Source of the DNA: Branchiostoma floridae
Taxonomy: Eukaryota; Chordata; Leptocardii; Amphioxiformes; Branchiostomatidae
Assembly: GCF_000003815.2 (NCBI RefSeq)
Contig: NC_049997.1
Span: 8,796,431 to 8,860,430 of the forward strand
Length of the DNA stretch: 64,000 nt
Direction of reading: 5' to 3'
The notes below the pieces were generated by a model, which saw only the letters and a list, made by a program, of their open reading frames with translations, did no database searches and was not told where the DNA came from. The position numbers were made by a program, and so were the translations under genes. Below, piece by piece: positions 5,440 through 62,470 of this stretch (position 1 is its first letter; every line of letters starts with the position of its first letter).

Positions 5440-6240
5440 GTCTAAGCTTAGTCTGAGGTATATCAGTTTCTCTAGGAGTAGTCTCTACCACACGAAAAGG
5501 GAGACGGGAACAGGCGTGTCACGACGCTTCTCAAAGGAAAGGTCCACACAGCTCCATTTGACCGATGGTTTCGTTTCATAGGTCTTCTTACTAATAACTC
5601 ATTTGATGTCGTTGTAACTAGTACTCGCACGTATATTCAATACATATACAGTGATTAAAATGTCACTCATCGATTTACTCTTCGGTTGAGGTACTGAGTA
5701 TATCAGTTTTTTTTATTATTCTGTTTTCTTTAGCCAGGGTAGCCCAACTCAGTGTAACACACTGCTTTACAGTGGGGCCCTGGATTTCTTCATGTGTAAC
5801 TTCTGCCACACGAAACGGAAACAGACGTGTCACGAAGCATCTTCAAAGGAAATGTCAACCTACCACAGACCTTCATTTGACCGATGGTTTCGTTATATAA
5901 ATATTCACACTAACAACCCATTTGATGTCATTGTAACTTACTCGCACGTATAGTCTATATATTTACAGTTAGTTAAATGTCACTCACAGATATACTCTTC
6001 TTCTGAGGTATATCAGATTCTCCAGGTGTAATTTCTGCAACACGAAACGGGAACAGACGTGTCTACGGTGACGCGTCACGATGCGTCAAAGAAAATGTCA
6101 ACCTCCCAATGACCTTTCTTTGACCGATGTTTTTTTTTTAATTCCATAAATCTTCTTAGCCATTTGATGTCATTGTAACGAGTACTCGCGTGTATGCTCT
6201 ATACATATACAGTTAGTTAAATGTCAGTCATCGATATGTG
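5440..6240. repeat. Three tandem copies of a ~250-300 bp unit
   Basis: Three successive blocks near 5455, 5790 and 6000 share GAGGTATATCAG, CACACGAAA, GACGTGTCACGA, TTTGACCGATG, CATTTGATGTCATTGTAAC, ACTCGCACGTAT and AAATGTCACTCA in the same order. They are diverged and carry no shared open frame. I read this as an old local tandem duplication. Confidence 0.65.
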
Positions 6241-12559: not shown

Positions 12560-12825
12560 GTAAAGTGATTTCTAATTGATGTTCTTCTTTGCGTAAACAT
12601 GTATTTATCGTGATGATATTAGTATACTGCTACTGATATTAGTATATCCTCCACATGAGTGAACCTTAACAATGTTGAGGCACATATGTTCTGACTTTCA
12701 CTTTAGATGTTTACGTATTTAAACCTGCGAGAACTGCCATTGTCTTCTCTTTTATGCTCAATATGATCATGTCATTATCATTAATATTTCTGACAAGCAA
12801 TATTGAAAGCACATTGTTTTTATGT

Positions 12826-14000
12826 CCTCCCATGTAGACCTAGATATTATACAAGTATCTGATAGAGTCTCAGTCTGTGCATTCCACAAGCTACTGGACT
12901 AAATATTGCTATATCTGTTATAACTTTTCATGTCTAATAATGGATATAGTGTTGATTTATGAATGGAGTTACCAGAAAGTATTGTCTGCTATGTTTTTGT
13001 TTGATATTACAATATTGGGGTGTTTGCCTCTTTCCGATTGCTTGCGTGGGCGTGTCTGGAAGCGCTCTTTATAAGTATCTAGTCACACTTTCATCCACCC
13101 GTTCTCATCCATGTATGTATGTTTGCAGGATATAATAATTCTCGACTACCATATTCACTATAAAAGAGAAGACAATGGCATTGCCAGAGGTTTCAAACCT
13201 AAAGCAATGTTGACAGACCATTGTTTTATATCTTTCCATAAAGATCTAAATAAGATACAATATCTAAGAGTCTCTGGCTGTGCAATTTACAAGCCACTGG
13301 ACTAAAACAGTACCATTTGGTCTTTGGAGTTTTCATGTCCGGTACATAATGTTTATTTCATGGGATTGAGTTACAAGAAAACATTGTCTGAGCACTATGT
13401 TTTTGTTTGATATTACAATATTGGGTTGTTTACCTCTTTCCGATTGCTTGCGTGAGCGTGTCTGGAGGTGCTCTGTAGATTGTTACACTTTTATCTACCG
13501 CTTCTTCATTAATGTTTGTATGCAGGATATGATGAGTCTAGACAATGATATTCACTATAAAGGAAAAGACACCGGCTTTGCTCGAGGTTTCAAATAGAAA
13601 GCAATGTTGACGGGACATTGTTTTATTTCTTTCAATGTAGACCTAGATAATGTACTGGTCCAGTATCTAATAGAGTCTCTGTCTGTACATTCTACAAGCT
13701 GGAATAAAACAGTACTATTTCTGCTTTCCAACTTTCCATGTCAACTTATCGAGTTACCAGGAAGCATTGCCTGTTATGTTTTTTGTTTGACATTATTATT
13801 ACTTTTTCACTTCTGCTCTGTTGAGTTATATGCCACTTTCCCGTCGCTTGTGTGGGTGTGAATGTGGAGGCGCTCTGAATCTCGTCACACTTTCATCTAC
13901 CCGTCATAACCCAGGTGTGTATGCAGGATATGACTGCGTCAGAGAGCTCTAAGATTCCTCAACTAAACCATACCAGTAGACGGCAATGTGACGGCAACCT
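12826..14000 (+). repeat. Three ~380-406 bp tandem units with exon-like ends
   Basis: The word ATGTTTTTGTTTGATATTAC starts at 12991 and 13397, with a variant at 13776, giving periods of 406 and 379. Each unit contains a pyrimidine-poor TGTATG...TTGCAG or TATGCAG acceptor-like site followed by GATAT (13130, 13526, 13926). The short frame after it is partly conserved between the first two units (IHYK..D.G.ARGFK) and diverges in the third. The protein is not recognised. This could be a duplicated noncoding or species-specific exon, or simply a satellite. Confidence 0.6.
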
Positions 14001-15834: not shown

Positions 15835-16475
15835 TATGTCCTTTTGTGTGAGTACAGGGTCAGGCACTTTTGTCCGGTGGTGTTGCAGGTGCACGAGGGC
15901 TCATTGTTCTTACTTCTGAGTATTCCATTCATGCCTTTTGCTACAACTTTTTGTCCAGGTTGAGTTGAAATTTTCTGTTAGGTTCTTGGGTGAGTAATTG
16001 GCGACTTATTGGCAACTACCCACATGAGATTCTCTGTGCTTGCAACACCTCTTTTGTCCTTCTACCAAAATGCAATCATTTGTGAAAGATAAAAGCATTA
16101 TTGTCCTTTTGTGTTTGTATCTGGGTCAAGCCTCTTCCTGTTGTCCGGTGGTGTGGCACGTGGCATTGTACGTATGGTCAGGCACTTTTGTCCGGTGGTA
16201 TTGCAGGTGCACGTGGGCTTATTGTTCTTACTTCTGAGTATTCCAATCATGCCTTTTGCTTCAACTTTTTGTCCAGGATGAGTTGAAATTTTCTGTTAGG
16301 TTCTTTGGTAGTTGGAGACTTATTATCAATTACATGAAATTTTTTGTGCTTGCAACACCTCTTTTGTCCTTCTACCAAATGCAATCTTTTGTGAAACATT
16401 GTGTTCGTATCTGGGTCAGGTCTCTTCCCGTCGTGTGGCACATGGTATTGTACATATGCCGTCGTGAGTATTCCT
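15835..16475 (+). repeat. ~340-bp tandem duplication
   Basis: The block at about 15840-16080 (GCACTTTTGTCCGGTGGT, TGCAGGTGCACG, TTCTTACTTCTGAGTATTCC, CAACTTTTTGTCCAGG, GAGTTGAAATTTTCTGTTAG, CTTGCAACACCTCTTTTGTC) recurs in the same order at about 16178-16400. A weaker trace lies near 15710. Small frames in it are not conserved in phase. Confidence 0.75.
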
Positions 16476-17165: not shown

Positions 17166-17224
17166 CGTCCATGAAATGTCATGGAATGGAGGTTATATTT
17201 TCTGTTATGTGTCTCTGTCTGTGT

Positions 17225-17700
17225 AGATGATTACTCAAGAACGGCTGGATGGATTGGTTTCATACTTGTTGTGTTGGTGGGGTGCGATGAAAGCTCGAAT
17301 CGATGAGATTTTGGGCGCTGTATCTGTCGTTATGATTGATGTAATAATATCAGAAATCACCCCTATATCTGCGATATATTGGGACAGGCATCATGCTTTA
17401 AGCCTTTGTTAATGGGCTTAGCTCATCTCAGATAGTGAGGTGATTTCTACGACAGCTGTTTGGATCTGTGTACAAGATTACTCAAGAATGGCTGGATGGA
17501 TTGGTTTTATACTTGTTGTGTTGGTGGGGTATGATGAAAGCTCAAATCGTTGAGATTTTGGGAGCCGTATCTGTCGTTATAATCGGTGTAATAATATCAG
17601 AAATCACCCCTATATCTGCGATATATTGGAACAGGAATCGTGCTTTAAGCCTTTGTTAATGGGCTTAGCTCCAAGCAGATAGTGAGGTGTATGACAGCTG
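17225..17700 (+). repeat. Two-copy 247-bp tandem duplication
   Basis: GATTACTCAAGAACGGCTGG at 17227 returns 247 bp later, followed in both by GATGGATTGGTTT, ACTTGTTGTGTTGGTGGGG, TATCAGAAATCACCCCTATA and GCTTTAAGCCTTTGTTAATG. Both copies keep a ~60-codon frame (ITQE.LDGLV..LLCWWG..KA). Identity is high at the DNA level, so frame retention alone does not show coding. The protein is unrecognised. Confidence 0.8.
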
Positions 17701-18569
17701 GTTGGGGAACCCCGAGCTTTTTGACCTGGTATGTTATACTTCGTTTGCGCTGTTAGATTTTGTGCTCCGCGTGGCGTTATGACTCTATGCGTGGCTATAA
17801 TATATATCTGGCATCAACTTGTCCCCGTATCCTACATGTAGGTATTGGTTGAAGGATATTTCAAGAACACCACGCTACCATATGGCATCGATCTATTAAA
17901 CTCACATTATACTTCAAGTGTCACATATTTATATTTCCTAATCAGATGGACATTGTTTTTGTCTTTGAATGAAAAACCAGTTCTCTCCCATAACAGTAAT
18001 ATCCATTACTCTCATATACAACCGACCATCAACATACATAACATCCACAAAAAGCAATAAATATTTCATGGAGGTATGAGGTCCCCGAACTCTAGTTTGG
18101 CGTGCTTTGGGCGGGCGTTGTGCTGGTGTCGCTGGGAGCTTGGGAGGGCTCCAGCAGAATTTTAACTGTCACCTAATCAATTTGACGCCTGTGTTGAACA
18201 CGTGCCTTTGTTTTAGGCTTTCATTTTTAGTAAACAATTTGTTCCGACATATAAGATTTCTAATCTATAACATTTCTATTTCTAAGAAAGCTGCGTACCT
18301 TTTATAATGTAAGTCAATTGGACACCAAGACAGCACTTCCTATTTATATTTTGCTATAGGTTTGGATGTGTACATGTGAGATCATATATTCTTCATGTCT
18401 GAAGGCTTCCAGTCTGAAACTCGGACGGCCTTTGCCGGCCTTCGCTCGAGGATCGCCCAAGGTTCGCCCGAGGTTCGCCCGATTTCAGCTCTGTCAAAAT
18501 CATTGTATTATGGTGAATAAGACTTGTCTGTTCACTTTGTGGCTCTTGTGGTAGTTTCTTGATTGGTGT

Positions 18570-22870: not shown

Positions 22871-22874
22871 CTGC

Positions 22875-23380
22875 TGTTGTGTGCAGAACTGGCCCAGTTC
22901 GAATATTGTCTTGCATGTTGATGACATGTCTAGGATGAGATAGTGGAAGATAAAGGAAACATGTGGCTTCTTTAATGTGTGGGAAGTAGACGAAGGTTAC
23001 TGTTGTGTGCAGATTGGCCCAGTTAGAATATCGTCTTGCATTTTGATGACATGTCTATGACAGATAGCGGCAGAAAGAGAAAACAAGTGGTTTATGTAAG
23101 GTCCTCTTGCAGTGGGAAGTTGGCGAAGGTTACTGTTGTATACAGACTGGCCTAGTTAGAAGATCGTCTTGCATTTTGATGACATGTCTATGACAGATAG
23201 TGGAAGAAAGAGAAAACAAGTGGTTTATGTAAGGTCCTCTTACAGTGGGAAGTTGGCGAAGGTTACTGTTGTATACAGACTGGCCTAGTTAGAAGATCGT
23301 CTTGCATTTTGATGACATGTCTATGACAGATAGTGGAAGAAAGAGAAAACAAGTGGTTTATGTAAGGTCCTCTTGGAGGT
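22875..23380. repeat. Four tandem copies of a ~131-bp unit
   Basis: GTGTGCAGA..TGGCCCAGTT and CGTCTTGCATTTTGATGACA recur at about 22879, 23009, 23140 and 23271. The last two copies are almost identical, so the array has grown recently at its right side. A lone diverged piece occurs near 24085. Confidence 0.9.
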
Positions 23381-33009: not shown

Positions 33010-33590
33010 ATGGATCCAGCGCTAGAAGTGCTTTATCCTACAGAACACCCCCTCATTGAGCACAGCACGGACACCTATTCCGTACAAAGTTTCAACATGA
33101 CTTATTGCCTACACTTCTTCTCCCAATTCTACAACCACACCGCTTCTGAGACGTACGGCTTTCAGGATATCCTCTCACAGATCCCGCCGTATTGCCAGCA
33201 GCTTCTACTGGAGACCGCCGCCATGGACAGCCACGTCATGCACCAGGACTTTGAGTTTACGGACACCGATCGGGCTTCGTCGGTCATCCGAACAGTCCTG
33301 GGTATAGTGTACTCTCTCGTCATGGCTGTATGTGGGATCGGGAACCTGCTCCTCTTCGCAGTCATCTTCTGCTACAAGAAGAGCCGAAGCGCCACCAACA
33401 TGTTGATCAGTAACCTCTGCTTTGCTGACTTCTTCGTGGCGGTGTTCTGCATCCCGCTGCAGCTGGATTACTACGTCATCAGGAACCAGGCCTGGGTGTG
33501 GGGAGGCTCCATGTGCAAGGTGGTGTCCTTCATCCGCATGATGTCACTCTACGTCTCTACCAACACGCTACTGGTCATCTCTATCGACAG
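33010..33590 (+). CDS. PROKR-like: PROKR-like exon 1 (N-terminus to TM3)
   Basis: The exon codes for residues 1-193 plus two bases of codon 194, ending in the SIDR motif. The donor is GACAG followed by GTCAGT. The exon is GC-rich compared with its surroundings, as expected of coding DNA. The frame is open back to 32839. A possible acceptor, GTAATTGCAG, lies at about 32925-32935, so the 5' UTR may begin there. Confidence 0.85.
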
Positions 33591-36500
33591 GTCAGTTCTA
33601 CAACTCGTCTGGTTTACTTGGTTAAACTCCTTAACTTTCACTTGTAAAGTGTAACAGCTGTTCTGTCAGGAGCAACAAGTCTCTACCAACACTCGAGTAC
33701 TCTCCTGGTCATCTCTATCGACAGGTCAGTTCAACAACTCGTCTGGTTTACTTGGTTAAACTCCAAGTAAACAATTTTCACTTGTAAGGTGTGGCAGCTG
33801 CTATCTTCCAAGAGTAACAAGTGTACTCTCCTGGTCATCTCTATCGGCAGGTCAGTTCTACAACAAAGTTTGGTTTGGTTTATTTGGTTTAACTTCTTAG
33901 CTGTCAGATGTAAAGTGAATAAAGTGGCAACTTTTGGCACGTTGTTCAATACTGCTAAAACAGCACTGTTGATCTCTGACCACCCGACCCGACTTCCCAC
34001 ATAAACGTTATAATTAACGTTTTGCGATTCTAATTGACAGTTGTGTATATATTGTTACTCTGGGCTGTTGATTGTTTGGTTTCTCTTATTTCTTTGTTTA
34101 TGCTATTTCATTCATTCATTCATTCATTCATTCACTCATTTATTCACCATATTATTTCATAGAGAAGAATTTCAGCTGCATATCCATCTATCCCATGCTT
34201 TATGACGGTGTGCTTTTCACATTGGTAATCATCTGTCCCATGAACTGGGTTCTTCGGTCCTTTATAGTTGATTTAGTTGACATGATGAGGTTATCTGTTT
34301 GGCCTTGGCTACGTCGTGTTTGATCATTCAGGATGATTACATTTGATCACGGTGCACGTATTTTACGTATGGTGGTGGTTTCTGCCTTTCAAAGGATTTC
34401 CACCCGGTGATTTTAATCTTGATCATGGAGGAATAAGGACTTTATTGGTTTCCAGGGTTACCTTTATGTACACTTCAAAGTGTAAAGTATTAACTTATTA
34501 AGTAGCTTCAACAGACGCTTCCATATCAAGGACGTTCTCCATTTTAGTGTACGCGTGTGCAACAGAATGCATAATGGGTAATAATTCAAAGGTGAAGGTG
34601 TCTGAGACTAGGGTACCATCCGGATAGTAGTTCGCTCCTATATTCGCTTCTGCTATCTCTGGAAACACAGAGAAGCGACTGTATATAGTGTATAATGAAT
34701 GTCAGAGCTAGAAGCGACTGTATATAGTATATAATGAACGTCGGAGCGAACTACTCTTTGGATGGTACCCAGGCTAGTCTGAGACATGAATAAAACACAT
34801 CTGAATATCACAATACTAATCGATGAAATTGTCGACATCAGAACTGTTTTTTTTTATAATTTAGATATTGTAATACGTAAAATTATTGCATAGAAGACGA
34901 CAAAATACACAAAAAGTAAGAAAATTCGTTCTTTATTTCGTTGAGTATCTTTCGAGCCCCGCAATGCCACAAGCGTGCCTCACGTCCGGTGAGAGTGCAC
35001 ATTTAGTCTTTGGCGTCCATCTATGTACTTAGAATCGTGAACCCTCTTATTGATAGATTTAAAAAAAAGACTTAATAGCTTATTAGCCCTGGCGATACCA
35101 TCTCATCATCACTTATTCAAGTCCAATTGCGTTGAAAGTAATGATTCTTTAAAAGCAGTTGGGTGCACTGTTTTCGTTGTATTTGCATGAAGGCTTATGT
35201 ATGCTGAAAGGTGCGTGTGAAAAATAGAAAAAAAATGAAAACAATGAAACGTGACTCCAGCACTAAACTAAGACAAGATTTTCGACCAGTTCTATAATAT
35301 AGAAACTCGAAAGCCGTGCACAAATGCCACCTGTCTTTTAACCGAACAACCTGTCTCGTTTGTTTGAACGTTTTTTTTTATTCATAAGAAGCTCAAATCG
35401 GCCCGCAGGCCGCTTCTTATTGAGGTCATTTAGTTAGATCCCCGTTTCTGGCACAACCTTATTTGAAAATCCTACGACATCAAAGTAGGACTATGTGTTC
35501 CTACCACAGATGTAAACGCATTGTCTGTGACTTAGGGCGATGTATGGTATTTCAAACCTATTGATGTTACCCGTAACCTTTAAATACCCCTGGGGCCTTG
35601 TGTTCATAATTGATAAGAAGAACTACAATTACATCATATACCATATTTCTGCTGTATTATACACCATTTAACACGACCGCCATCTTAGAAGTGTTCCAAA
35701 ATCGACCCGGTAAACGTAAATATCCAAGTTGGTTTTGCTGTTACCCAAAGGTAGATGCTGAGGTTGTTAGTAGACCCATCCATGCGTACATGTGGTTTGA
35801 TTGGATTTTGATCAAACCTAGGTCGTTCTCAACGCAAGGGTCCCTGTGAAATGTCAATCGATGCCAAGGTATTAAAAGTTTACACTGCAAGGTCAATTTG
35901 GATTGTGATTGAAAAAAACAACAACTAAGGATTCAATATTGTCTAAATGGCCCGAAGCCAAAAATTTACAGTTTTTGTTTCTGACAAATGCAGGACCCCG
36001 TCAAATGAAGTAGCGAAGTTGTTACAACAACAAAGTTCTTTTGAGTAATGCGTTACGTGTATGAACTTTCTTTGGGAAGGTTTCCAAGAATGTTTGCCAT
36101 TACTTATGATGTATGCTTGGCTAAACTCCTAGAGGAAGATATTCTAGTTTGGCAGATAGGATTTTCTGAGTCCCAAGAGTTAATTGAGTTGGCAACTTCA
36201 TTTCTACCTGCATCGGGTCTACGATTGATCTTATCATCCTTGGCAACCGTCCCAGCAAAATCCGTACTTACAATGTTAAAACTGTGCCCCCAGAAAACAA
36301 AGGACGTGCACAGAAATGTAGTTTTGTTCTAGAAAACAATATTTATGTTTTACAGTATGCGTGTGAATGATTTGTTATCTATTTTTAGCCTAGACAACCC
36401 ATTTCTAATAAGCAAAAGAATGATCTAAAACTAATCAATTATGTCATACTTAAAGACTGCACCATTCCCATCATGCATTTCACATGCGTCTGCATACAGG

Positions 36501-39500
36501 GAAAATGTTCAGTTCAGTTCAGTTGGTTTTAAAATTTTTCATCATTAATCTGTAATCAATTCTGTACCGGTTCCATGAAAATGTAATATTTTCATTTTTT
36601 AGTTTTATTTCCTTTTTTTTAGAAAATAGGACTTTTTTAGCCTCCCGTTTAAATACTGGTTATAGGTAATATTGAGATATGCAGAAAATACTGGGGTTTT
36701 ACCGTTCTTGTACGTGCATGCTTTAACCCTATCCAGACTGGGCTTTTGGGGCATTCCCTGGACTATCTCATTTTGATTTTTAATTATAAATGTTCAACTT
36801 AGATGTGTTACACATTAAAGATATATGAAAAGAAGTTTAGTTTAGCAAGAAAATCTTAAAATCCCATTGTTTAAACCAAAATTAGTGATTTTTTGTAAAA
36901 TTTGCCTTTCAGAAACCCGTTACCATGGCAACACGAAAAATTATAAACTTACTCTATTTTTTTTTCAAATTGCTGCCAACAATATTCTAGAAAAAGTCAC
37001 CAAGTTTAGTTGTTCTAGCACAAGCCGTTCGGGAGCTATAGGACGTCAAAGTTGCCGCGGGCACTTTACCCCCCCCCCCCTCCCACCCCCGGCTGGATAG
37101 GGTTAACAAATTGAATCTAAATACAGACAAAAGTGCCAAGGCCCAATTTGTGATGTTGGAAGATATCATTTAATGACTTACAATCCGTAACAAGCTTAAT
37201 TATATTTTGTGGCGATCCATGAAATTGAATAATAAATCCATGAAATTGAATAATAAATCAATCTTTACTGCTGGATATATTAGGTAAGTAATATTAGGTA
37301 CAATATTTATTGAAACGTTTCAGACAGCATCCATCGTCTTTCATCAATTCAATGAATATACAGAGATTCTACTTTATGTAAACATGTTGGTTTTGCTTTG
37401 TCTCTTCTTCTTCTTCTCCAATCAAATAAGGTCAATGACCTGGGCCAGACAAATGACCTGGACCAGACAGCTATCACCATGGTTACCAGTAAAGATGCAG
37501 ACACCCAGTGGTGTTCGGTTACATCAAGTAGCAAATGGCTTAGCACAGAGCTAGAGGGGTTCAGGTCACTTGGAGTAAGAATAAACATAACAGTATTTAG
37601 AGTAAGACTACAACATGTAAAGGCAAACATTATATATTTTCTTGCAAATGTCACCTTTCTTGTTATATTTATTTCTTAAATATTTCATTTATGGATGTAC
37701 AGATGCCTGGTGGTGAGAAGGCAGTTTAACGGTAAGAAGACGAGGCGGAGTGTTGCTGTGGTGTTGGCGGTGGTGTGGACAGTCTCAGCCCTTGTAGCTC
37801 TCCCCTCGGCCCTCTACGCCAAGGTACGGAATCTTCCCTTTGCTATCAACTCCTGGTCACGGATTAAGAACGTTATAGAAAAGAAAAATAACACGTGTAA
37901 TGTATAATAAATTGTTAGTTGAACTACTGGTAATATCTAAGAATTTAAAAGTACCATTCTACTTTGTGAATAACAATAATAAGCCAATCTAGCTATGCAT
38001 GCTCTAAAGTGTTCATTGTGTTGATGACAGGAATACGTTGTCTCGTTCTTGCATAAAATTGTTTCTTTCCTACACAAAGAGGGAATGCGTCCCATTTCCA
38101 AAAAATTTTCCATAAAAGTGCATAGTATATAAACGGTAAAAAGTTCTTTGCTGGTGTCCTTGTTTTAGATGAAGGTTAGACATCCAGGTAATAACATACG
38201 CCAAATAGCAATTACTCAAGCATCGGATATAACATTCGTTGCCTGGCCTTTTCCAAAATCATAATCCCGTTGCTTGAGTAATTGCTATTTGGCGTGATGT
38301 TTATATCATCATTTGACATTTACCTAGAATAATACGAATACGAATTTTTTTTTCATATATGAAGTCATTGCATTGTAATATACATTTGTAAATAGCAACC
38401 CAGTCCCCTATAGATTTTACTATTACGAATAGCTCACACGATGTTTATTCTGATCGGGAAGTAATCAGAAGTTGACTTTTGCCTAGACGTACATCGAAGG
38501 TTACAGATATTGACTATTATATTCTATTCCTACAATAGATCCACCCTCAGCAGAACGGAAACAACATGTTCTGTGGGCAGGCGTGGCCTGTGAGCCAGAT
38601 GTTTGCCTACAAGGCGTACTTCATGTTCCTGATGATGATGATTATTCTATTCTATCTCTACTTTAGATCCACCCTCAGCAGAACGGAAACAACATGTTCT
38701 GTGGGCAGGCGTGGCCGGTGAGCCAGATGTTCGCGTACAAGGCGTACTTCATGTTTCTGATGGTGATTACTCTATTCTATCTCTACTCTCGATCCACCCC
38801 CAGCAGAACGGAAACAACATGTTCTGTGGGCAGGCGTGGCCGGTGAGCCAGATGTTCGCGTACAAGGCGTACTTCATGTTCTTGATGATGATTATTCTAT
38901 TCTATCTCTACTCTAGATCCACCCTCAGCAGAACGGAAACAACATGTTCTGTGGGCAGGCGTGGCCTGTGAGCCAGATGTTCGCGTACAAGGCGTACTTC
39001 ATGTTCCTGATGATGATTATTCTATTCTATCTCTACTCTAGATCCACCCCCAGCAGAACGGAAACAACATGTTCTGTGGGCAGGCGTGGCCAGTAAGCCA
39101 GGTTTTTGCCTACAAGGCGTACTTCATGTTCCTGATAATGATTATTCTATTCTATCTCTACTCTAGATCCACCCTCAGCAGAACGGAAACAACATGTTCT
39201 GTGGGCAGGCGTGGCCGGTGAGCCAGATGTTCTCGTACAAGGCGTACTTCATGTTTCTGATGATGATTATTCTATTCTATCTCTACTCTAGATCCACCCT
39301 CAGCAGAACGGAAACAACATGTTCTGTGGGCAGGCGTGGCCGGTGAGCCAGATGTTCTCGTACAAGGCGTACTTCATGTTTCTGATGATGATTATTCTAT
39401 TCTATCTCTACTCTAGATCCACCCCCAGCAGAACGGAAACAACATGTTCTGTGGGCAGGCGTGGCCAGTAAGCCAGGTTTTTGCCTACAAGGCGTACTTC

Positions 39501-40211
39501 ATGTTTCTGATGATGATTATTCTATTCTATCTCTACTCTAGATCCACCCTCAGCAGAACGGAAACAACATGTTCTGTGGGCAGGCGTGGCCTGTGAGCCA
39601 GATGTTCTCGTACAAGGCGTACTTCATGTTCCTGATAATGATTATTCTATCATATCTCTACTCTAGAGCCACCCTCAGCAGAACGGAAACAACATGTTCT
39701 GTGGGCAGGCGTGGCCGGTGAGCCAGATGTTCGCGTACAAGGCGTACTTCACGTTCCTGATGATGATTATTCTATTCTATCTCTACTCTAGATCCACCCT
39801 CAGCAGAACGGAAACAACATGTTCTGTGGTCAGGCGTGGCCAGTGAGCCAGATGTTCGCGTACAAGGCGTACTTCACGTTCCTGATGATGATTATTCTAT
39901 TCTATCTCTACTCTAGATCCACCCTCAGCAGAACGGAAACAACATGTTCTGTGGTCAGGCGTGGCCAGTGAGCCAGATGTTCGCGTACAAGGCGTACTTC
40001 ACGTTCCTGATGATGATTATTCTATTCTATCTCTACTCTAGATCCACCCTCAGCAGAACGGAAACAACATGTTCTGTGGTCAGGCGTGGCCGGTGAGCCA
40101 GATGTTCGCGTACAAGGCGTACTTCATGTTCCTGATGGTGGCGGAGTACGCTGTACCGTCACTCTGCATGGCCTTGTGTCTGCTCTTCGTCTGGTGCAAG
40201 GTGCATACAAA

Positions 40212-40243
<32 letters not shown>

Positions 40244-41526
40244 GTTTTTGAGGCTACCAACTTCAATTTGAAGACTTTTGTAGCCTATATAGGAAAGTCG
40301 TGTAAAGTGCCTTTCCCAAGGGCACAAGATCGGTGACCTTCTGGACCTGAGTCAAACGTGCTGCCGATTGCACCACGCGGTCCTACGATATCTGCACAAT
40401 GGTCTATACAGCTACTTGTTTACATTCAATATCAACAATTGATAATTTAATTTGCTGCTGAGAAGTTAAGTTATCTTTGTTTTCGTGTTTTTTTGCAAGA
40501 ATCTACATATCAATCATCTATCTAAAAGTGGAAATTTTTGCCTAGAATAACCGCCTAACGACGTGTACTAGGACTAATCAAACTTGGTGAATTTTCATAA
40601 GATTTTGTTGTCCTTGAGTCCTTGATAGACATATTTTATAACGTTCACTGATTTTGGTTTGAACAACAAGGTTTTAGGGGTTTGTTGCTCAACTACACTT
40701 GTTTTCCTATACATAATAATGTAGAACTTCAAATTAAAAATATATACATAATTATCTTACATACCTATTTGTTATCTTTTGTTTACTTTAATAGAGGCAT
40801 TAACTTTTGTTTCTAAAGACTAAACTAGCTGCCAAGAATTTTATGTGTTTTGAGGTTCTTTTGAACTACTTTTATTTGTCTTTTCCTTTACCATATGTTC
40901 TTGAATAGTATTAAAAACATTGTATGTATTTCTATGCAAATTCTACATTTCTACTTTTTTTTTCTCCATTACTACAGGTTTGGGGCCGTCGGTTCCCCGG
41001 GACCGAGAACGCGTCCATTCGCCGTGCGAGAGAAAAGTCCCGTAAGAAAACCATCCACCTCCTGGTTCTGGTCATCATGTTCGTGGTGTGCTGGACGCCT
41101 TACTACACCTACAGTCTCGTGCGAGACTTCTTCGACGTGCTGCAGACGTACCACCTCAACACAGACCTCTTCTACATCGCAGAGGTCTTCGCGAAGAGCA
41201 ATAGCATGATCAACACCGTGGCCTACATAGTTTTCAACGAGAACATCATGATGTACGTGCGGAGTTTGGTCTCTTTCCTCCGTACACGAGCGGGGAAACG
41301 GCGCACGATCAGTCGATATGGGTCACAGCCGACCCGGAGAACCAGCCTGCGGAGACGCCCCATGATTGTGCAGGTTGAAATGGCGGTGTTGCCGACTGAA
41401 CATGAGGGCAGCCCGGGGAAACTTTGTTTGTCGCCCGTCCGCACCACTGCTTGTAGCGTTACCTCTACCCCGGTGGCGGTGCATCGAAATAATGAGCCTG
41501 CAGTTGCCCACCATACTCAGCTCTGA
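33010..41526 (+). CDS. PROKR-like: Prokineticin-receptor-like GPCR, four coding exons
   Basis: Exons 33010-33590, 37703-37823, 40042-40200 and 40978-41526 join in frame to a 469-residue rhodopsin-class receptor. It would sit in the plasma membrane and bind a prokineticin-type peptide; this role comes from the family. Visible features: two N-glycosylation sites (N29, N42), TM1 with GIGN (93-121), TM2 with NLCFAD (129-151), LDYYVIRNQAW in loop 1, C169 before TM3, TM4 (209-231), C246 within FCGQAWPVSQ in loop 2, TM6 with CWTP (313-335), and TM7 SNSMINTVAYIVF with NT in place of the usual NP. The loop 1, loop 2, TM6-7 (LVRDFF) and TM7 wording matches prokineticin receptors closely. The N-terminus is longer than in vertebrate receptors. 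An in-frame ATG at 32839 would add 57 residues without signal-peptide features, so 33010 is preferred. DRY is DRC. Confidence 0.85.
33547..33930 (+). repeat. Triplicated exon-1 end plus splice donor
   Basis: The last ~45 bp of exon 1 with its donor and ~85 bp of intron are repeated twice downstream. TCATCTCTATCGACAG/GTCAGTT appears with donors at 33591, 33725 and (as CGGCAG) 33851, giving spacings of 134 and 126 bp. The downstream copies lose the open frame, so only the first can act as the normal exon end. Confidence 0.9.
34100..34146. repeat. (ATTC)n microsatellite
   Basis: About nine repeats of a tetranucleotide in intron 1. The complementary (AATG)n tract occurs near the inverted copy of the adjacent dispersed repeat at 51.9-52.0 kb. 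Confidence 0.9.
34230..34608 (+). repeat. Dispersed repeat R in intron 1, inverse of 51455-51770
   Basis: GGATTTCCACCCGGTGATTT, AATAAGGACTTTATTGG, TTACCTTTATGTACACTTCA, AACAGACGCTTCCATATCAA and CAAAGGTGAAGG occur here. They appear as their reverse complements in the same relative order in Dispanin gene A intron 1. It is non-coding. Confidence 0.8.
34609..34776. mobile_element. Foldback MITE (TAG...CTA), 9-bp duplication
   Basis: The ends are TAGGGTACCATCCGGATAGT and the inverse GGATGGTACCCAGGCTA. The flanks are the identical 9-mer GTCTGAGAC (34600-34608 and 34777-34785), a clean target duplication. It inserted in the end of repeat R. Related copies are at 45690-45853 and 48825-48902, with a piece at 57297. 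Confidence 0.9.
34845..35005. repeat. MITE F1 right half
   Basis: TATTGTAATACGTAAAA, GAAGACGACAAAATACACAA, AAATTCGTTCTTTATTTCG, GAGTATCTTTCGAGCCCCGC and AATGCCACAAGCGTGCC match the interior and right end of family F1 (compare 44113-44346). The left TIR is missing. Confidence 0.65.
36727..37102. mobile_element. piggyBac-like MITE with TTAA duplication
   Basis: The 376-bp element starts CCCTATCCAGACTGGG and ends CCGGCTGGATAGGG. It is flanked by TTAA on both sides (36723-36726 and 37103-37106), the hallmark of piggyBac-type insertion. Its interior is related to the larger element at 26206-27177. It lies in receptor intron 1 and has no coding capacity. Confidence 0.85.
37299..37660 (-). repeat. 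Probable retroelement 3' end in intron 1
   Basis: On the minus strand the block reads as a ~100-codon frame ending DKAKPTCLHKVESLYIH, followed by a tail with TGATGAAAGACGATGGATGC and GAAACGTTTCA. The latter wording is common at the 3' ends of dispersed retroelements in invertebrate chordates; I cannot name the family with confidence. It lies 40 bp before exon 2. Confidence 0.35.
37703..37823 (+). CDS. PROKR-like: PROKR-like exon 2 (loop 2 to TM4)
   Basis: This 121-nt exon completes codon 194 and encodes residues CLVVRRQFNGKKTRR to TM4 and YAK. The acceptor is TGTACAG and the donor is GCCAAG/GTACGG. It turns the usual DRY into DRC. No upstream AG would restore a tyrosine, so the change is in the sequence rather than in my splice choice. 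Confidence 0.8.
38509..40041 (+). repeat. 125-bp array of splice acceptor plus exon-3 start
   Basis: Twelve copies precede the functional exon 3, making 13 in all. They start at 38539, 38667, 38792, 38917, 39042, 39167, 39292, 39417, 39542, 39667, 39792, 39917 and 40042, with period 125 after a first step of 128. Each holds ~25-29 bp of intron end (TATCTCTACTCTAG) and ~96 bp of exon (IHPQQNGNNMFCGQAWP and onward), then passes back to intron-like sequence. Eleven of the twelve upstream copies keep the AG acceptor; the copy at 38792 has CG. Because 125 is not a multiple of three, read-through shifts frame and meets stops, so only the last copy makes a complete exon. Confidence 0.95.
40042..40200 (+). 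CDS. PROKR-like: PROKR-like exon 3 (loop 2 cysteine and TM5)
   Basis: This 159-nt, 53-codon, phase-0 exon encodes IHPQQNGNNMFCGQAWPVSQ through TM5 to LLFVWCK. It is the only array copy that continues into MVAEYAVPS. The donor TGCAAG/GTGCAT is weak, and a (CTTT)n tract follows it directly. Confidence 0.85.
40211..40243. repeat. (CTTT)n microsatellite after exon 3
   Basis: About eight CTTT repeats lie 10 bp inside intron 3. Confidence 0.95.
40255..40388 (-). repeat. tRNA-derived SINE, family A, short copy
   Basis: GTAAAGTGCCTTTCCCAAGG and GGCACAAGATCGGT are followed by a degraded tRNA-like block ending CACCACGCGGTCCTA, as in the family A copy at 10110-10510. Confidence 0.65.
40978..41526 (+). 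CDS. PROKR-like: PROKR-like exon 4 (loop 3, TM6, TM7, tail)
   Basis: The acceptor is a pyrimidine tract ending ACTACAG. The exon encodes the basic third loop (RRAREKSRKKT), TM6 with CWTP, LVRDFF, TM7 and a ~90-residue basic, Ser/Thr/Arg-rich tail, with a TGA stop at 41524-41526. The tail is longer than in vertebrate prokineticin receptors and offers many possible kinase sites. The coding GC content is clearly above that of the flanks. Confidence 0.9.
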   Translation, partial: VWGRRFPGTENASIRRAREKSRKKTIHLLVLVIMFVVCWTPYYTYSLVRDFFDVLQTYHLNTDLFYIAEVFAKSNSMINTVAYIVFNENIMMYVRSLVSFLRTRAGKRRTISRYGSQPTRRTSLRRRPMIVQVEMAVLPTEHEGSPGKLCLSPVRTTACSVTSTPVAVHRNNEPAVAHHTQL

Positions 41527-50656: not shown

Positions 50657-50830
50657 TCAGCAGGGGCTGGTCCGCTGGTAGTGATGTGTGTTTAACTCCC
50701 ATACTCTTTCCTGCTGAGTGCTAAGCAGAGAAAGCAACATGTACCATTTTAAAAGTCTTTGGTATGACTCAGCCGGGATCGAACTCACGACCAACCGCGA
50801 ACAATCTACCCACTCGACCACTGCACCGGT
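50657..50830 (-). repeat. tRNA-derived SINE, family B, just before gene A
   Basis: AGCAGGGGCTGGTCCGCTGG through GGTATGACTCAGCCGGGATC and CACTCGACCACTGCACC. On the minus strand it has a good A box (GGTCGAGTGGGTAGA) and B box (GAGTTCGATCCC). This is the best-preserved family B copy. It ends 52 bp before the gene A start codon, and a TTTAATTTCAG acceptor-like site abuts its left edge. Confidence 0.75.
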
Positions 50831-50882
50831 AGGTTATCGAAGACTAATGACAATTTGTATCAATGCACAGATAGACACTACC

Positions 50883-51107
50883 ATGGCGGAACAAGAAGCC
50901 TCCTACCCTCCCCCTGCTTACCCGGACAAGGGTGGTGAACAGCCGCCACAGCAGGGGTATGGCTTCCAGCCGCAGCCGTACGGACAGTACCCTCCACAGC
51001 AGGGCCAGTACCCCCCTCAACAGGGCCAGTACCCCCCTCAAGGGCAGTACCCGCAAGGGGGGTTTGTGCAGCAAGGGGCTTACGTGCAGATGGGGACTAC
51101 TGTCGGG
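50883..51107 (+). CDS. Gene A exon 1 (Pro/Gln-rich N-terminus)
   Basis: 75 codons from ACCATGG, a good initiation context, to donor GTCGGG/GTAAGA. The frame is open upstream through the SINE, but the start chosen aligns with the MAT/MAE starts of genes B and C. Confidence 0.85.
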
Positions 51108-53309
51108 GTAAGAACGAGTCCGATTTCGTGTTTAACATAAGTATATACTTAACAAAGAAGGAAAATGAGATCTATAGATAAATTAAACGGGAAATAATAT
51201 CTATAAGTGGAAGTGACCCACAGTCTAGGGAGAGGGGGTTTGCGACTATGACATAGAAGAAGAACAAGAAGAACAATTTTTATTAAAGCTGTCAAAACCA
51301 AGATTTCCTTGTTCTTCTGTTCTTTCCTTGTATATAGTAGTCTCGAACAGTCTCCTTGGGTTGCAGAAAGTTTGTGAAATTGGAGATGACCCAATGGAGA
51401 AACTTAAACTTAAGCCATATTTCGAGTGCAGTTCTCGGCCTACTTGACCATGGTGAATGAATGAATGCCTTCACCTTTGAATCGCTACCCATTATGCGTA
51501 CAGTAAAACGGTGCAGGTCCTTGAAATCGAAGCGTCTGTTGACGCTACTTAAGTTAGTAGTTTACACTTTGAAGTGCACATAAAGGTATCCCTGAAAGCC
51601 AATAATGTCCTTATTCCTCCGTGATTTAAAGTCACCGAGTGGAAATCCTTTGAAAGACGTAAACCACCACCTTATGTAAGACACATACACAGTGATCAAG
51701 TGTTATCATCCTGAATAATCAAACACGACGTATCCAAGGCCAAATAACCTCATCATGTCAGCTAGATCAGCGTCAATGGCTGAGTAATTATAACCCTGTA
51801 ATGGGATTGATGATTACAACTGTGAAAAATACACTGTTAAACGCATGGGCTAGATGAGCATGCAATTACAGTTCTCCTCTATATGTCTCATTGTGAATAA
51901 GAATGAATGAAAGAATGAATGAATGAATGAATGAATGAATTATGCTCTCACAGAGTGGAGGAATAAAAGAAGGAAAAGAAAAAAATGGATGAATGAATGA
52001 ATGAATGAATGAATGAATGAATGAATGAATGAATGAGCTCATTGCAAGTGGCGTTACTACAATGAGAACTGACAATACAAATTTAAGACATGTTTGGGAG
52101 TTTCTAAAAGCAGATTTTTTTTTCTTTTCTTTACTATACTGATTTTGTAGCAGCCGGCCGTGATGATGGTAGGGAGCAGGGCTAATGACTACATGGGCCT
52201 CTCCATCTTCACTCTGCTCTGCTGCTGCCTACCTCTCGGCATCGCGGCCATCGTCAGCTCCTGTGAGGTAAGGAACCCTCAAACTAAAGGCCCCCTCTCA
52301 CTTGACGTGCGGCACGCTTGCGGCATTGCTGCGTTCGGAAGATGCTCAACGAATTCAGAGATAAAGAACGAATTTTCTTACTTGTTGTGTATTCTGTGGT
52401 CTTCTATGTCACACTTTTACGTATTGCGCAATATCTGAATTATAACAAATCGGAGAAAATAACAAAACAGTACCGCAGTGAACGAACGCAGCAATGCCGC
52501 AAGCGTGCCGCACGTCAAGTGAGAGGGGGCCTTTACCATGGAGGAGGGGGGCAGGTCATCACACCGCTGCCACCAGTTAAAAAAAAAAACATTCCACTGG
52601 GCGGCGACCTCGTTGAGACCCCAAATTTTAATCGATCGTTCGACGAATTCCTAAACTGTTATGTGGTCTTTTAGTCGAATCTTTACCTATCATGAACTCA
52701 GGGGCTGCATAAATCCAATTAAGATCGCAGTGAGCCTTGGGACATGTACCAATAGGGAGTGGGCAGGTCGTCACACCGCTGCCACCATTGTAATGGTATT
52801 GGTGTGGGCCTGTGTAAATATGGGCTTTACAGTGTTGAAGCATAATGTGTTTTAAAACAGGGGTCGATACTGACAGACCTTGTGGGCGATTGAGGGTTAA
52901 GCGTTTTCAATTAGACATCTAGACACGTATATCTAAATAAACAGAAAACTCTGTTTTTTTTACGCTGCATTGTTTAATTTAGAACAATCTAGCAATGCAC
53001 AGCAAAAAACGGTTTCTTTGAACTTAAAGGATTATGCCATTCACGGCTATCAAACTTTACAGACCATATGTATTCAGTATTTGTCCAATCTGTTTGCTTG
53101 TTTGTTTTGTTTAATCGATTGATGATTTGTTTGTTTATCAGACACAGGACGCCAACAACGCTGGAGACCTGAACAGAGCTCAGGCAGCATCGAACCGAGC
53201 CAAAATCCTCAACTACTGGGCTCTGGGCGTGGGGATCTTCTTCTGGGTCATCGGGGTCATTCTTATCATCCTGTACTTCACCCTGTTTATCTCCGCGTTT
53301 TGGGGTTAA
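50883..53309 (+). CDS. CD225/Dispanin-family membrane protein, gene A
   Basis: Exons 50883-51107, 52151-52267 and 53142-53309 join in phase 0 to a 169-residue protein. The N-terminal 75 residues are Pro/Gln/Tyr/Gly-rich with a PPPAY (PPxY) motif at 9-13 and tandem GQYPPQ units. The CD225 domain follows: NDYMGLSIFTLLCCCLPLG (87-105) with a CCC cluster (99-101), the conserved GDLNRAQAASNRAKILN loop, and a second hydrophobic segment (139-164). The family (IFITM, PRRT1/2, SynDIG-like) consists of small two-segment membrane proteins. The cysteines are often palmitoylated and PPxY motifs bind WW-domain ubiquitin ligases; both are inferred here. Closest subfamily not resolved. Function in this animal is unknown. 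Confidence 0.85.
51455..51770 (-). repeat. Dispersed repeat R, intron 1 of gene A
   Basis: Reverse-complement match to 34230-34608 in the receptor intron, including TTACACTTTGAAGTGCACAT and GGAATCCTTTGA-like blocks. Confidence 0.8.
51900..52035. repeat. (AATG)n microsatellite, two blocks
   Basis: Two AATG arrays separated by ~40 bp lie in intron 1 of gene A. Confidence 0.95.
52151..52267 (+). CDS. Gene A exon 2 (first membrane segment)
   Basis: 39 codons, phase 0 at both ends. Acceptor TTTTGTAG (an alternative CAG 3 nt later would drop one Gln); donor TGTGAG/GTAAGG. Encodes the conserved GLSIFTLLCCCLPLG core. Confidence 0.85.
52287..52533. mobile_element. Perfect-TIR MITE F1 in gene A intron 2
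   Basis: The 247-bp element has 51-bp terminal inverted repeats that match base for base (52287-52337 against 52483-52533, starting AAGGCCCCCTCTCACTTGAC). It is flanked by TA (52285-52286 and 52534-52535). Perfect TIRs indicate recent insertion. It starts only 19 bp after the exon 2 donor. Confidence 0.95.
53142..53309 (+). CDS. Gene A exon 3 (loop and second membrane segment)
   Basis: 55 codons plus TAA. Acceptor TTTATCAG. Encodes TQDANNAGDLNRAQAASNR and the hydrophobic C-terminus ending AFWG. Confidence 0.85.
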   Translation, partial: TQDANNAGDLNRAQAASNRAKILNYWALGVGIFFWVIGVILIILYFTLFISAFWG

Positions 53310-60028: not shown

Positions 60029-60921
60029 ATGACGACAGCTATTGCCTTAGGCGGTACATCCTTATTTTGTTACACCTGCGCAACAGTTGGGCTGATTGTA
60101 TTGAGAGACTTAGAAAGGTAGGTGTGTATAAAATTTGCTCAATCAAGATATATATACATATATATATATATATAACTATACAAGTAGTCTTATATTGTAT
60201 ATTTGCTACAGTAAACGTAAATTCATTGAAAGGTTAAAATGGCGCTTTTATTACCTATAGTCAGGGGTCGTTAAATTCAATACAAGTTAAAGGTCTGATG
60301 AAACTGTCTTGCTGCAATGTTATCAATACAAAATGCACTAGAACGTTAACAACGTGAAACCTGTGATATAAGCAGGCGCCGAATCTACAGAATAGCATAC
60401 TATTGTAACGGTTAATCTAGTAAGACATGTACAGCACCCCTCCCCCAACAGTGCTTTGATTATTAATGATATTAAAATAATTTGTAATGTCTTTTATTGG
60501 TATTTTATTAGAATCACAACAATTCAATACCAATGAAGAGTCAGATATGTTCAAAATGCATTCAAATGACTAAACAGACAATCTAAATTGAATGCAATAG
60601 CATTTAAGCACCATACGTGCAGAATATGTCAAACTGTGTACGTAAAAAATATTTGTTGACAAAATAATGCCATCCCGGACGTTGTTTCTGGCAAACAAGC
60701 AACCGAAATGTTGTACGCTAACTCGAAGGTCGCTAGCTTCGCTTTAATTCGCGGCAGCTTTCGGCAGCGGACTAAGGCGAACAAGGCTGGACTGCAGGCT
60801 ACATCCATTACGCTAATATTGTATGTTTTCAAGCATAAATGAAAAGTACGCTTTAAGCAGCGACGCAACAGTTCCATTTACTCATAAAACCTTGCATTCA
60901 TTTTACAATCCACAATCAGAA

Positions 60922-61131
60922 ATGGCGACTGAAAGTGAGCTTTACCCCCCTCCTCCTTACAATGTCGACCACCGAGAACAACCTCAAGGTTACGGGTTTC
61001 ATCCGTACTACACCCAACAGCCACCGTACAACCCACACCCACCGTACAACCAACAACCACAGTACAACCAACATCAACACCCAACAAACATGCACCCCTA
61101 CGGACAACAAACAACCACTGTCGAGATTTCG
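60922..61131 (+). CDS. Gene C exon 1
   Basis: 70 codons from AAATGG to donor ATTTCG/GTATCT. The upstream frame is open to 60823, but the MATES start aligns with gene B. Confidence 0.75.
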
Positions 61132-62470
61132 GTATCTTTAAATTTCTTGCAATACGTTTGACATTTTGCCAAAATACATACACATGGCGTTTATACATTG
61201 TAGCTGGCATTGATAGGGTGGGAGGGGGTACTGGAGTATTACACGTACCAATTTTCTCTTCTTTTTTTTTCCCCTCGAATTTGTAAGGTGCTGCCGAAGG
61301 ACTACTATGGCCTGTCCATTTTCACTCTCATCTGTTGCTGTCTGCCTGTCGGCGTCGCCGCTTTGATCTTTTCTTACGAGGTAAGGGCCGTTTCCATGGT
61401 AACGAGTGATTGTGATCCCACCCCTGCCACCATTTGGTAGTTTGGCAATGATCACATACAGCGCCAGTGCTTTGTCCTCAGCGAAGATATGGAAATAACT
61501 ACACTGATCTTAAACGTGACTTTGATTCTATATTCACCTCAAGATGATGCGATCTACTTGAGTGATTCCACAACGTCGTTTCCAGTGGGACTTGGGTTTT
61601 AGTCTGTTTTCCTGCGTATGTTCGTCCGTGTTGTGCATACGTCATGGTAAATGTAGGCTTCAGCGAAGGAGGTGTGGTCCTTAGAAACATAGGCGACATC
61701 CGATTACTTATAGCATATCTATTTATTTGCATCTGAAAGGCATAAAAAATGAAGCAATTAGAAAAGATGTGATTTTGATTTTTATCTGACCAATGTATCC
61801 TGTCACTGATAAAAAATGAGCTAATACTCGTCTATCACCACCTAGCTTAACAGCTGCAATCGGGTAAAATACACTTAAAAAAATGTATATATGAATTGGC
61901 CTTATAACATTATATACGTTCTGTTGTGTACATACATACATACAATGTACAAAAGATAATCTTCTGTAAAATCGCGATTTCAACGTTGGTCGGGTCTCTG
62001 GCCGAATCANNNNNNNNNNNNNNNNNNNNNNNNNNNNNNNNNNNNNNNNNNNNNNNNNNNNNNNNNNNNNNNNNNNNNNNNNNNNNNNNNNNNNNNNNNN
62101 NNNNNNNNNGTGATAGCGATTTTGCCGACGGGGCAATATCGCTATCACAGCAAACTCCCTTTCACAGCATACTCCCTTCCTGGGCATAATCCCTTTCCCG
62201 GCACAAGAGAACCCGACCAACGTTGAAAATCGCGAAACAACGCCCCCCCCCCCCCATAAAAACCAGCCCCGTTCGAAGACTGCAACGGAGTCTAAAGTTA
62301 AGTGATGTAACGTTAACGCTGTTTCTTAAATTTGTGCTTGTCAGGTACAGAGCGCGAACGCCATCGGAGACGTTCCCCGGGCCCTGAAGGCGTCCAACCG
62401 CGCCAAGATACTGAACTACGTGGCGCTCGTGCTGGGCGCTTTCTGCTGGATGCTGGTATCCAACCATTAA
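60922..62470 (+). CDS. CD225/Dispanin-family membrane protein, gene C
   Basis: Exons 60922-61131 (70 codons), 61288-61380 (31) and 62345-62470 (41 plus stop) join in phase 0 to 142 residues. The N-terminus starts MATESELYPPPPYN with a PPxY motif and goes on as a Pro/Tyr/Gln/His/Asn-rich stretch. Exon 2 gives KDYYGLSIFTLICCCLPVG (74-92) with the CCC cluster, and exon 3 gives NAIGDVPRALKASNRAKILN. The second hydrophobic segment is short (YVALVLGAFCWML) and stops at VSNH. A splice from GTATCC at 62456 to an acceptor before 62952 would replace the last four residues. Role as for gene A: a small membrane protein with possible WW-domain partners, not assignable further. Intron 2 contains the 100-N gap. 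Confidence 0.8.
61288..61380 (+). CDS. Gene C exon 2
   Basis: 31 codons, phase 0. A long pyrimidine tract ends in TTTGTAAG; donor TACGAG/GTAAGG. First membrane segment with CCC. Confidence 0.85.
61960..62294. mobile_element. Second copy of the TAGACTCC MITE, with gap
   Basis: The right end TTCGAAGACTGCAACGGAGT to 62294, with a C-run and GAGAACCCGACCAACGTTGA inside, is the reverse complement of the 59.2-kb element. GCGATTTCAACGTTGGTCGG at 61973 is inverted relative to that part, so the N gap sits in the middle of a long hairpin. The left terminus TAGACTCC is not seen. Confidence 0.7.
62010..62109. other. Assembly gap (100 N)
   Basis: Exactly 100 N bases, the usual placeholder for a gap of unknown size. 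Frames drawn across it are meaningless. Confidence 0.99.
62345..62470 (+). CDS. Gene C exon 3
   Basis: 41 codons and TAA. Acceptor TGTCAG. It is strongly GC-rich in AT-rich DNA. The internal GTATCC at 62456 could be a donor in phase 0 (37 codons). Confidence 0.75.
   Translation, partial: VQSANAIGDVPRALKASNRAKILNYVALVLGAFCWMLVSNH

Follow-up and report, generated by a model that had tools for sequence, protein, structure and literature searches.

The window, by which we mean the whole 64,000-nt stretch of Branchiostoma floridae DNA analysed here (G000:C19:8796431-8860430 in the contig labels used below for other receptor loci), contains a predicted receptor gene whose four coding exons specify a protein of 469 residues (Table 1). 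Residues 111–370 match the Pfam family 7tm_1 with an E value of 8.5e-47, indicating a rhodopsin-family seven-transmembrane (7TM) fold. Alignment to human PROKR2, using a provisional sequence, gives 127 identical positions out of 342 (37%) and 238 BLASTP bits, and the best receptor in the PDB reaches 126 bits in phmmer, a different program. Two PDB searches match 735 and 145 sequences; among the 60 listed, no entry is named prokineticin receptor, and the gene name therefore rests on the provisional PROKR2 sequence. The junction between exons 2 and 3 is in phase 0 and lies, on a provisional topology, directly ahead of what we take to be extracellular loop 2. The accessible text of a 2008 survey describes twenty predicted prokineticin-receptor-like genes in B. 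floridae, with approximately 42% identity in the transmembrane (TM) regions (PMC2246102). Our gene resembles this set in its identity to human PROKR2 over 342 residues, but it has DRC instead of DRY after TM3, and its coding sequence is split into four exons.

Table 1 Features of the receptor gene, its repeats and the repeats at two other receptor loci.
Feature	Position	Strand	Basis
Coding exon 1, N-terminus to TM3	33010..33590	+	Homology, signals, Pfam, PROKR2 alignment
Second mirage: exon 1 end and intron 1 start, three diverged copies	33553..33917	+	Self-BLAST, donors, alignment; below TRF reporting threshold
Coding exon 2, after TM3 to TM4	37703..37823	+	Homology, signals, PROKR2 alignment
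13-unit, 125-bp array, 3'-splice-site mirage (intron 2 end and 96 nt of exon 3)	38511..40137	+	TRF, repeat families, unit table
Copy 1 exonic part, preceded by a different intron end	38539..38634	+	Unit table
Donor-like sites of copies 1–12, first bases	38590, 38718, 38843, 38968, 39093, 39218, 39343, 39468, 39593, 39718, 39843, 39968	+	Donor scoring
Copy 3 acceptor dinucleotide, CG replacing AG; the sole AG lost among 13	38790..38791	+	Sequence, unit table
Authentic exon 3 (53 codons in phase 0), covering loop 2 and TM5; copy 13 forms its first 96 nt	40042..40200	+	Homology, unit table
Donor-like GTGAGC of copy 13	40093..40098	+	Donor scoring
Coding exon 4, TM6, TM7, C-terminus, stop	40978..41526	+	Homology, signals, PROKR2 alignment
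L037 mirage	1963-2288, G000:C16 about 11.985 Mb	reverse complement	
L020 repeat	1211-1608, G000:C16 about 16.965 Mb	reverse complement	

The window holds several other features. Positions 34107-34598 in intron 1 form an inverted pair with 51468-51935 (500 columns, 77% identical), probably a dispersed transposable element, and intron 2 contains a perfect 24-nt inverted repeat at 38199-38294 (arms at 38199 and 38271 with 48 nt between them), perhaps a small transposable element. Self-BLAST finds further local duplications at 22874-23378, 17218-17705, 15858-16458, 12795-13933 and 5452-6237, mostly with spacings of approximately 130–410 bp. Ten open frames of the window, three of them beside local duplications, gave no Pfam family above the cut-off. 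The open frames 50718-51137 and 60817-61158, which likewise match no Pfam family, share proline- and tyrosine-rich starts (..YPPPAYPDK.. and ..YPPPPYNVD..) and are possibly paralogues. A run of 100 N at 62010-62109 is either a gap in the assembly or a withheld stretch.

A tandem array lies at the boundary between intron 2 and exon 3. TRF, run on the 64-kb window, reports 13.0 copies with a period of 125 bp that match at 94% and score 2870, whereas no repeat scores above 64 when the window is replaced by order-1 Markov versions of itself (20 in all); a repeat-family search also returns a start-to-start distance of 125. Each unit consists of 29 nt of the intron 2 end followed by 96 nt from the start of exon 3, and thus spans an intron/exon boundary, placed here by homology and splice signals, as do the ‘mirage’ minisatellites described in amphioxus (available text of PMC3087553 and PMC3902484). 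The exonic parts start at 38539 and 38667, a spacing of 128, and thereafter follow at intervals of 125 up to 40042. Copy 1, preceded by a different intron end, is presumably the ancestral copy. A 250-bp query from the array, compared with the genome (513,431,437 bases in 431 contigs), finds at least nine matching places, all of them inside the array. The original prediction had described a 13-copy, 125-bp array of an acceptor with a partial exon, in which 11 of the 12 upstream copies keep their AG and particular variants mark particular copies; the TRF result and the unit table bear out each of these points, among them one variant confined to copies 5 and 8 (GTAAGCCAGGTTTTTGCC), another present in copies 6, 7 and 9 and a third in copies 11–13. 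The upstream copy without AG is copy 3, which has CG.

Every unit is provided with a branch-point-like site and a pyrimidine tract ahead of its acceptor position. The AG is intact in 12 of the 13 copies, the authentic one included, and splice signals are thus retained in the manner of a mirage; on a provisional human scoring matrix, 10 of the 11 intact upstream acceptors score 7.03–7.30, against 7.30 for the authentic acceptor. A YTNAY motif lies 26–35 nt upstream of the acceptor in all 13 copies, and in copies 2–13 it is formed by the end of the preceding unit's exonic part (CTGAT, or TTGAT in copy 4). All 13 copies also carry a donor-like GT, 51 nt inside the exonic part, in the form GTGAGC or GTAAGC. 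These sites fall into four classes, CCG|GTGAGC (six copies, score 9.02), CCT|GTGAGC (three, 5.48), CCA|GTAAGC (two, 5.80) and CCA|GTGAGC (two, 5.68), so that on the same provisional human matrix six of them exceed all three authentic donors of the gene (8.59, 7.91 and 5.18). Outside the array, only 13 of 3800 GT sites on the plus strand of the window score at least 9.0. An AG and a strong donor occur together in four of the 12 upstream copies (2, 6, 7 and 10); copy 3 has a strong donor without an AG, and the other seven have weak donors (5.48–5.80). The internal GT lies 17 in-frame codons past the acceptor, and 74 nt (77 in the first unit) separate it from the acceptor that follows. Because the GT lies 51 nt into each copy, the AG-bearing units are potential phase-0 exons of 51 nt, and the 17-residue product of such a unit, IHPQQNGNNMFCGQAWP, is identical in 12 of the 13 copies.

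The choice among these acceptors would have consequences for the message. Read-through from every upstream acceptor position, 12 in all and hypothetical in the case of copy 3 with its missing AG, yields 59 or 60 residues before a stop in the next unit, 107–1482 nt before the end of exon 3, in agreement with the earlier claim that a wrong acceptor breaks the frame. By the usual rule, under which a stop more than about 50 nt ahead of an exon end leads to decay, mRNAs of this type would be degraded. In silico mRNAs with 1, 3, 11 or 12 extra 51-nt units, the cases computed, instead remain open to the normal stop, although the version with 12 is only formal, since copy 3 has no AG.

For the differences among copies, the p values given here serve as guides, the tests having been picked post hoc and the copies being non-independent. 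The 96-nt exonic part has 14 variable sites, distributed over codon positions 1, 2 and 3 as 3, 2 and 9 (p 0.017). Relative to the consensus, 9 of 15 derived states are synonymous, against a neutral expectation of 0.16–0.23 (p 0.0002–0.002); divided at the internal GT, the synonymous share is 4 of 5 before it and 5 of 10 after it. In copies 2–13, the 29 intronic nt have six private variants and no shared ones, whereas the 96 exonic nt have two private and 12 shared (p 0.0007). Taken by themselves, private variants give 6/29 versus 2/96 (p 0.002) and shared variants 0/29 versus 12/96 (p 0.067). The unit pairs 6/7 and 11/12 are identical, and 9 of the 13 units are unique over their 125 bp. Amino-acid changes fall in five codons, none of them among the 13 positions identical to the provisional PROKR2 sequence; at P 0.058, we dropped the idea of constraint at those positions. 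A permutation analysis found no significant extra likeness between copies at any lag from 1 to 5, and hence no higher-order repeat in the array. The repeated unequal exchange put forward in the original prediction fits the mosaic sharing of variants, although adjacent copies resemble each other no more closely than remote ones do (permutation at lag 1, p 0.34).

The array is not the only repeated boundary in this gene. A second mirage, new to this analysis, covers the end of exon 1 and the start of intron 1 in three diverged copies (self-BLAST, 33553-33762 versus 33679-33894, 76%; 33565-33651 versus 33825-33917, 81%). Its donors, at 33591, 33725 and 33851, all read CAG|GTCAGT; splicing from either of the two extra donors would lead to a stop at codon 215. 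We scanned 27 other receptor loci with 1.5-kb flanks, a set in which some pairs of loci belong to a single gene as separate exons and L034-L036 are three distant single-exon receptors, and found mirage-like repeats across the match in two of them. In L037, a prokineticin-receptor-like paralogue, a mirage with three copies 132–133 bp apart affects the donor of exon 1, as the second mirage does in our gene; this too is a new observation. In L020, three copies about 140–147 bp apart contain a probable acceptor and the start-codon region after it, the middle copy lacking the AG. Likewise new are the donor-like GT in all 13 copies of the array and the opposition between its synonymous-rich shared exonic variants and its private intronic ones.

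Comparison with the other fetched receptor loci, which have about 26–55% protein identity to our gene in their best matches, places the array within the history of intron 2. Among loci whose match crosses the junction, a count that omits those whose match ends there, the place of intron 2 is uninterrupted in six (L011-L015 and L022, the last soon running into N) and that of intron 3 in eight; the distant receptors L034-L036, outside these counts, lack both introns. We considered and rejected a recent gain of introns 2 and 3 that would make them private to our gene, because L021 and L041 appear to share them. L021, one of three junction-ending loci examined for intron 2 (with L031 and L038), has CTTTTTGCAG, after which the loop cysteine follows at the same distance in codons, and appears to share intron 2 in the same place and phase; L041, one of eight further regions fetched for intron 3, appears to share the place of that intron. 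The scan of L021 found no repeat spanning its match, and the array therefore seems younger than the intron that carries it. A 12-row tree built without vertebrate receptors does not place our gene firmly among its paralogues.

Taking these observations together, we consider it probable that the array is a neutral mirage, spliced at its last copy, whose exonic parts are refreshed by allelic exchange. A tandem duplication across the intron 2/exon 3 boundary would have been followed by growth through unequal exchange. Most mRNA would use the acceptor of copy 13, because exon recognition pairs the donor at 40201 with the nearest good upstream acceptor; this choice would give an exon 3 of 159 nt instead of 284 to 1662 nt. 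Messages spliced at upstream acceptors would probably be degraded, leaving the array near neutral. The simplest account of the variation pattern is exchange between the exonic part and a translated exon, which would explain why the exonic variants are largely shared and rich in synonymous changes and why every intronic one is private. The source of this exchange is likely, by our assumption, another allele of the same gene, since the paralogues are too diverged: we had entertained them as the origin of the shared variants, but identities of at most 55% in the best match now make this unlikely. Against exchange, a mutable pyrimidine-rich tract could likewise produce the surplus of private variants in the intronic parts, as could constraint acting on copies that are translated. 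The earlier suggestion of a neutral minisatellite with a captured exon edge agrees with the amphioxus mirages, for which normal splicing is reported or suggested in the available accounts (PMC3087553, PMC3902484), and in that part it survives. Plain neutrality would not require each unit to carry a donor-like site.

That donor-like site, absent like the second mirage from the original prediction, means that the splicing switch offered there as another option could make in-frame insertions of 17 residues. The units might accordingly be read as alternative tandem micro-exons, each a 51-nt phase-0 exon with an intron of 74–77 nt and its own branch-point-like site, which would add 17 residues apiece to extracellular loop 2 and so alter a ligand-facing loop. 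The universal GT, its rarity at comparable strength outside the array, the YTNAY motif in every copy, the nearly invariant product and the open frames of the computed mRNAs all agree with such exons, and in a JGI gene model for lancelet PGBD5 an exon of 57 residues lies within the mirage repeats, albeit one that has no EST or mRNA support and that the authors set aside (PMC3902484, as far as its text is available). Nevertheless, we regard this reading as quite improbable. The donor falls on Pro-Val codons that also occur in the provisional human PROKR2 sequence, so coding may explain it; only a third of the upstream copies (4/12) pair an AG with a strong donor; and donor strength is itself judged on the provisional human matrix. 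The derived states past the GT, which would be intronic in a micro-exon, are half synonymous, as in a copied exon, and the added loop cysteines could damage folding. In addition, the mirages of globins, Adh3 and troponin C are reported, in the text available, to be normally spliced and to leave the mRNA undisturbed (PMC3087553, PMC3902484).

The array might instead act as a length-variable brake, with upstream acceptor use feeding mRNA into degradation, so that receptor output would drop as copy number climbs. The 11 intact upstream acceptors, most of them close to the authentic one in score, and the stops that follow read-through far before the end of exon 3 are what a brake would need, but the normal splicing reported for other mirages in the same sources speaks against it, and we find it distinctly unlikely. 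It is very unlikely, too, that the minisatellite serves as a bank of cassettes, in which copy number and splicing would together set the number of 17-residue modules in extracellular loop 2 while selection would clean the exonic parts and leave the intronic parts to drift; were this true, most 125-bp units would be full 51-nt phase-0 exons with a 74-nt intron. An assembly artefact, with fewer true copies or two merged haplotypes, is extremely improbable: although the BflGb6 mirage of the draft genome has been termed aberrantly assembled, PGBD5 mirage copy numbers are unequal in two genome versions and two unit pairs here are identical, nine unique units exceed what assembly alone makes, and true length variation is reported for mirages, which differ between haplotypes or genome versions and in Adh3 are somatically unstable (PMC3087553, PMC3902484, in the parts available).

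The neutral mirage, our preferred reading, assigns the array to a kind already known: judged by its anatomy, it is a large example of an amphioxus mirage. As in Adh3, BflGb6, BflGb9, troponin C and PGBD5, a boundary is copied in tandem with splice signals in many copies, and the edge unit differs from the inner ones. In the figures given in the available text, the 125-bp unit falls inside the reported span (Adh3, 10–72; BflGb9, 157; BflGb6, 150–160; PGBD5, 60 and 108), and the copy number of 13 is higher than the 6 and 3 of BflGb6 and the up to 7 of PGBD5; PGBD5 also resembles our gene in having two repeat arrays in a single gene. A complete in-frame exon signal in almost all units is undescribed in the available text of the globin and PGBD5 accounts (PMC3087553, PMC3902484). 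Mirages are a test provided by nature of spliceosome choice among near-identical sites, and the weight of the present case lies in two boundaries hit in one gene, a paralogue (L037) with a repeat at the same donor, and in-frame exon signals in many units. The globin paper notes, in the portion available, that many repeats hold AG or GT signals and proposes their recruitment as exons (PMC3087553), and the exon signals of our units bear on this proposal that a mirage can give rise to an exon. In the Rogers model of intron gain by internal tandem duplication, the intron is new to its gene, whereas the array-bearing intron 2 is not, given the L021 acceptor in the same place and phase; the two cases are alike in that duplicates of acceptor and donor could turn into exons or introns, as the accessible globin text relates (PMC3087553).
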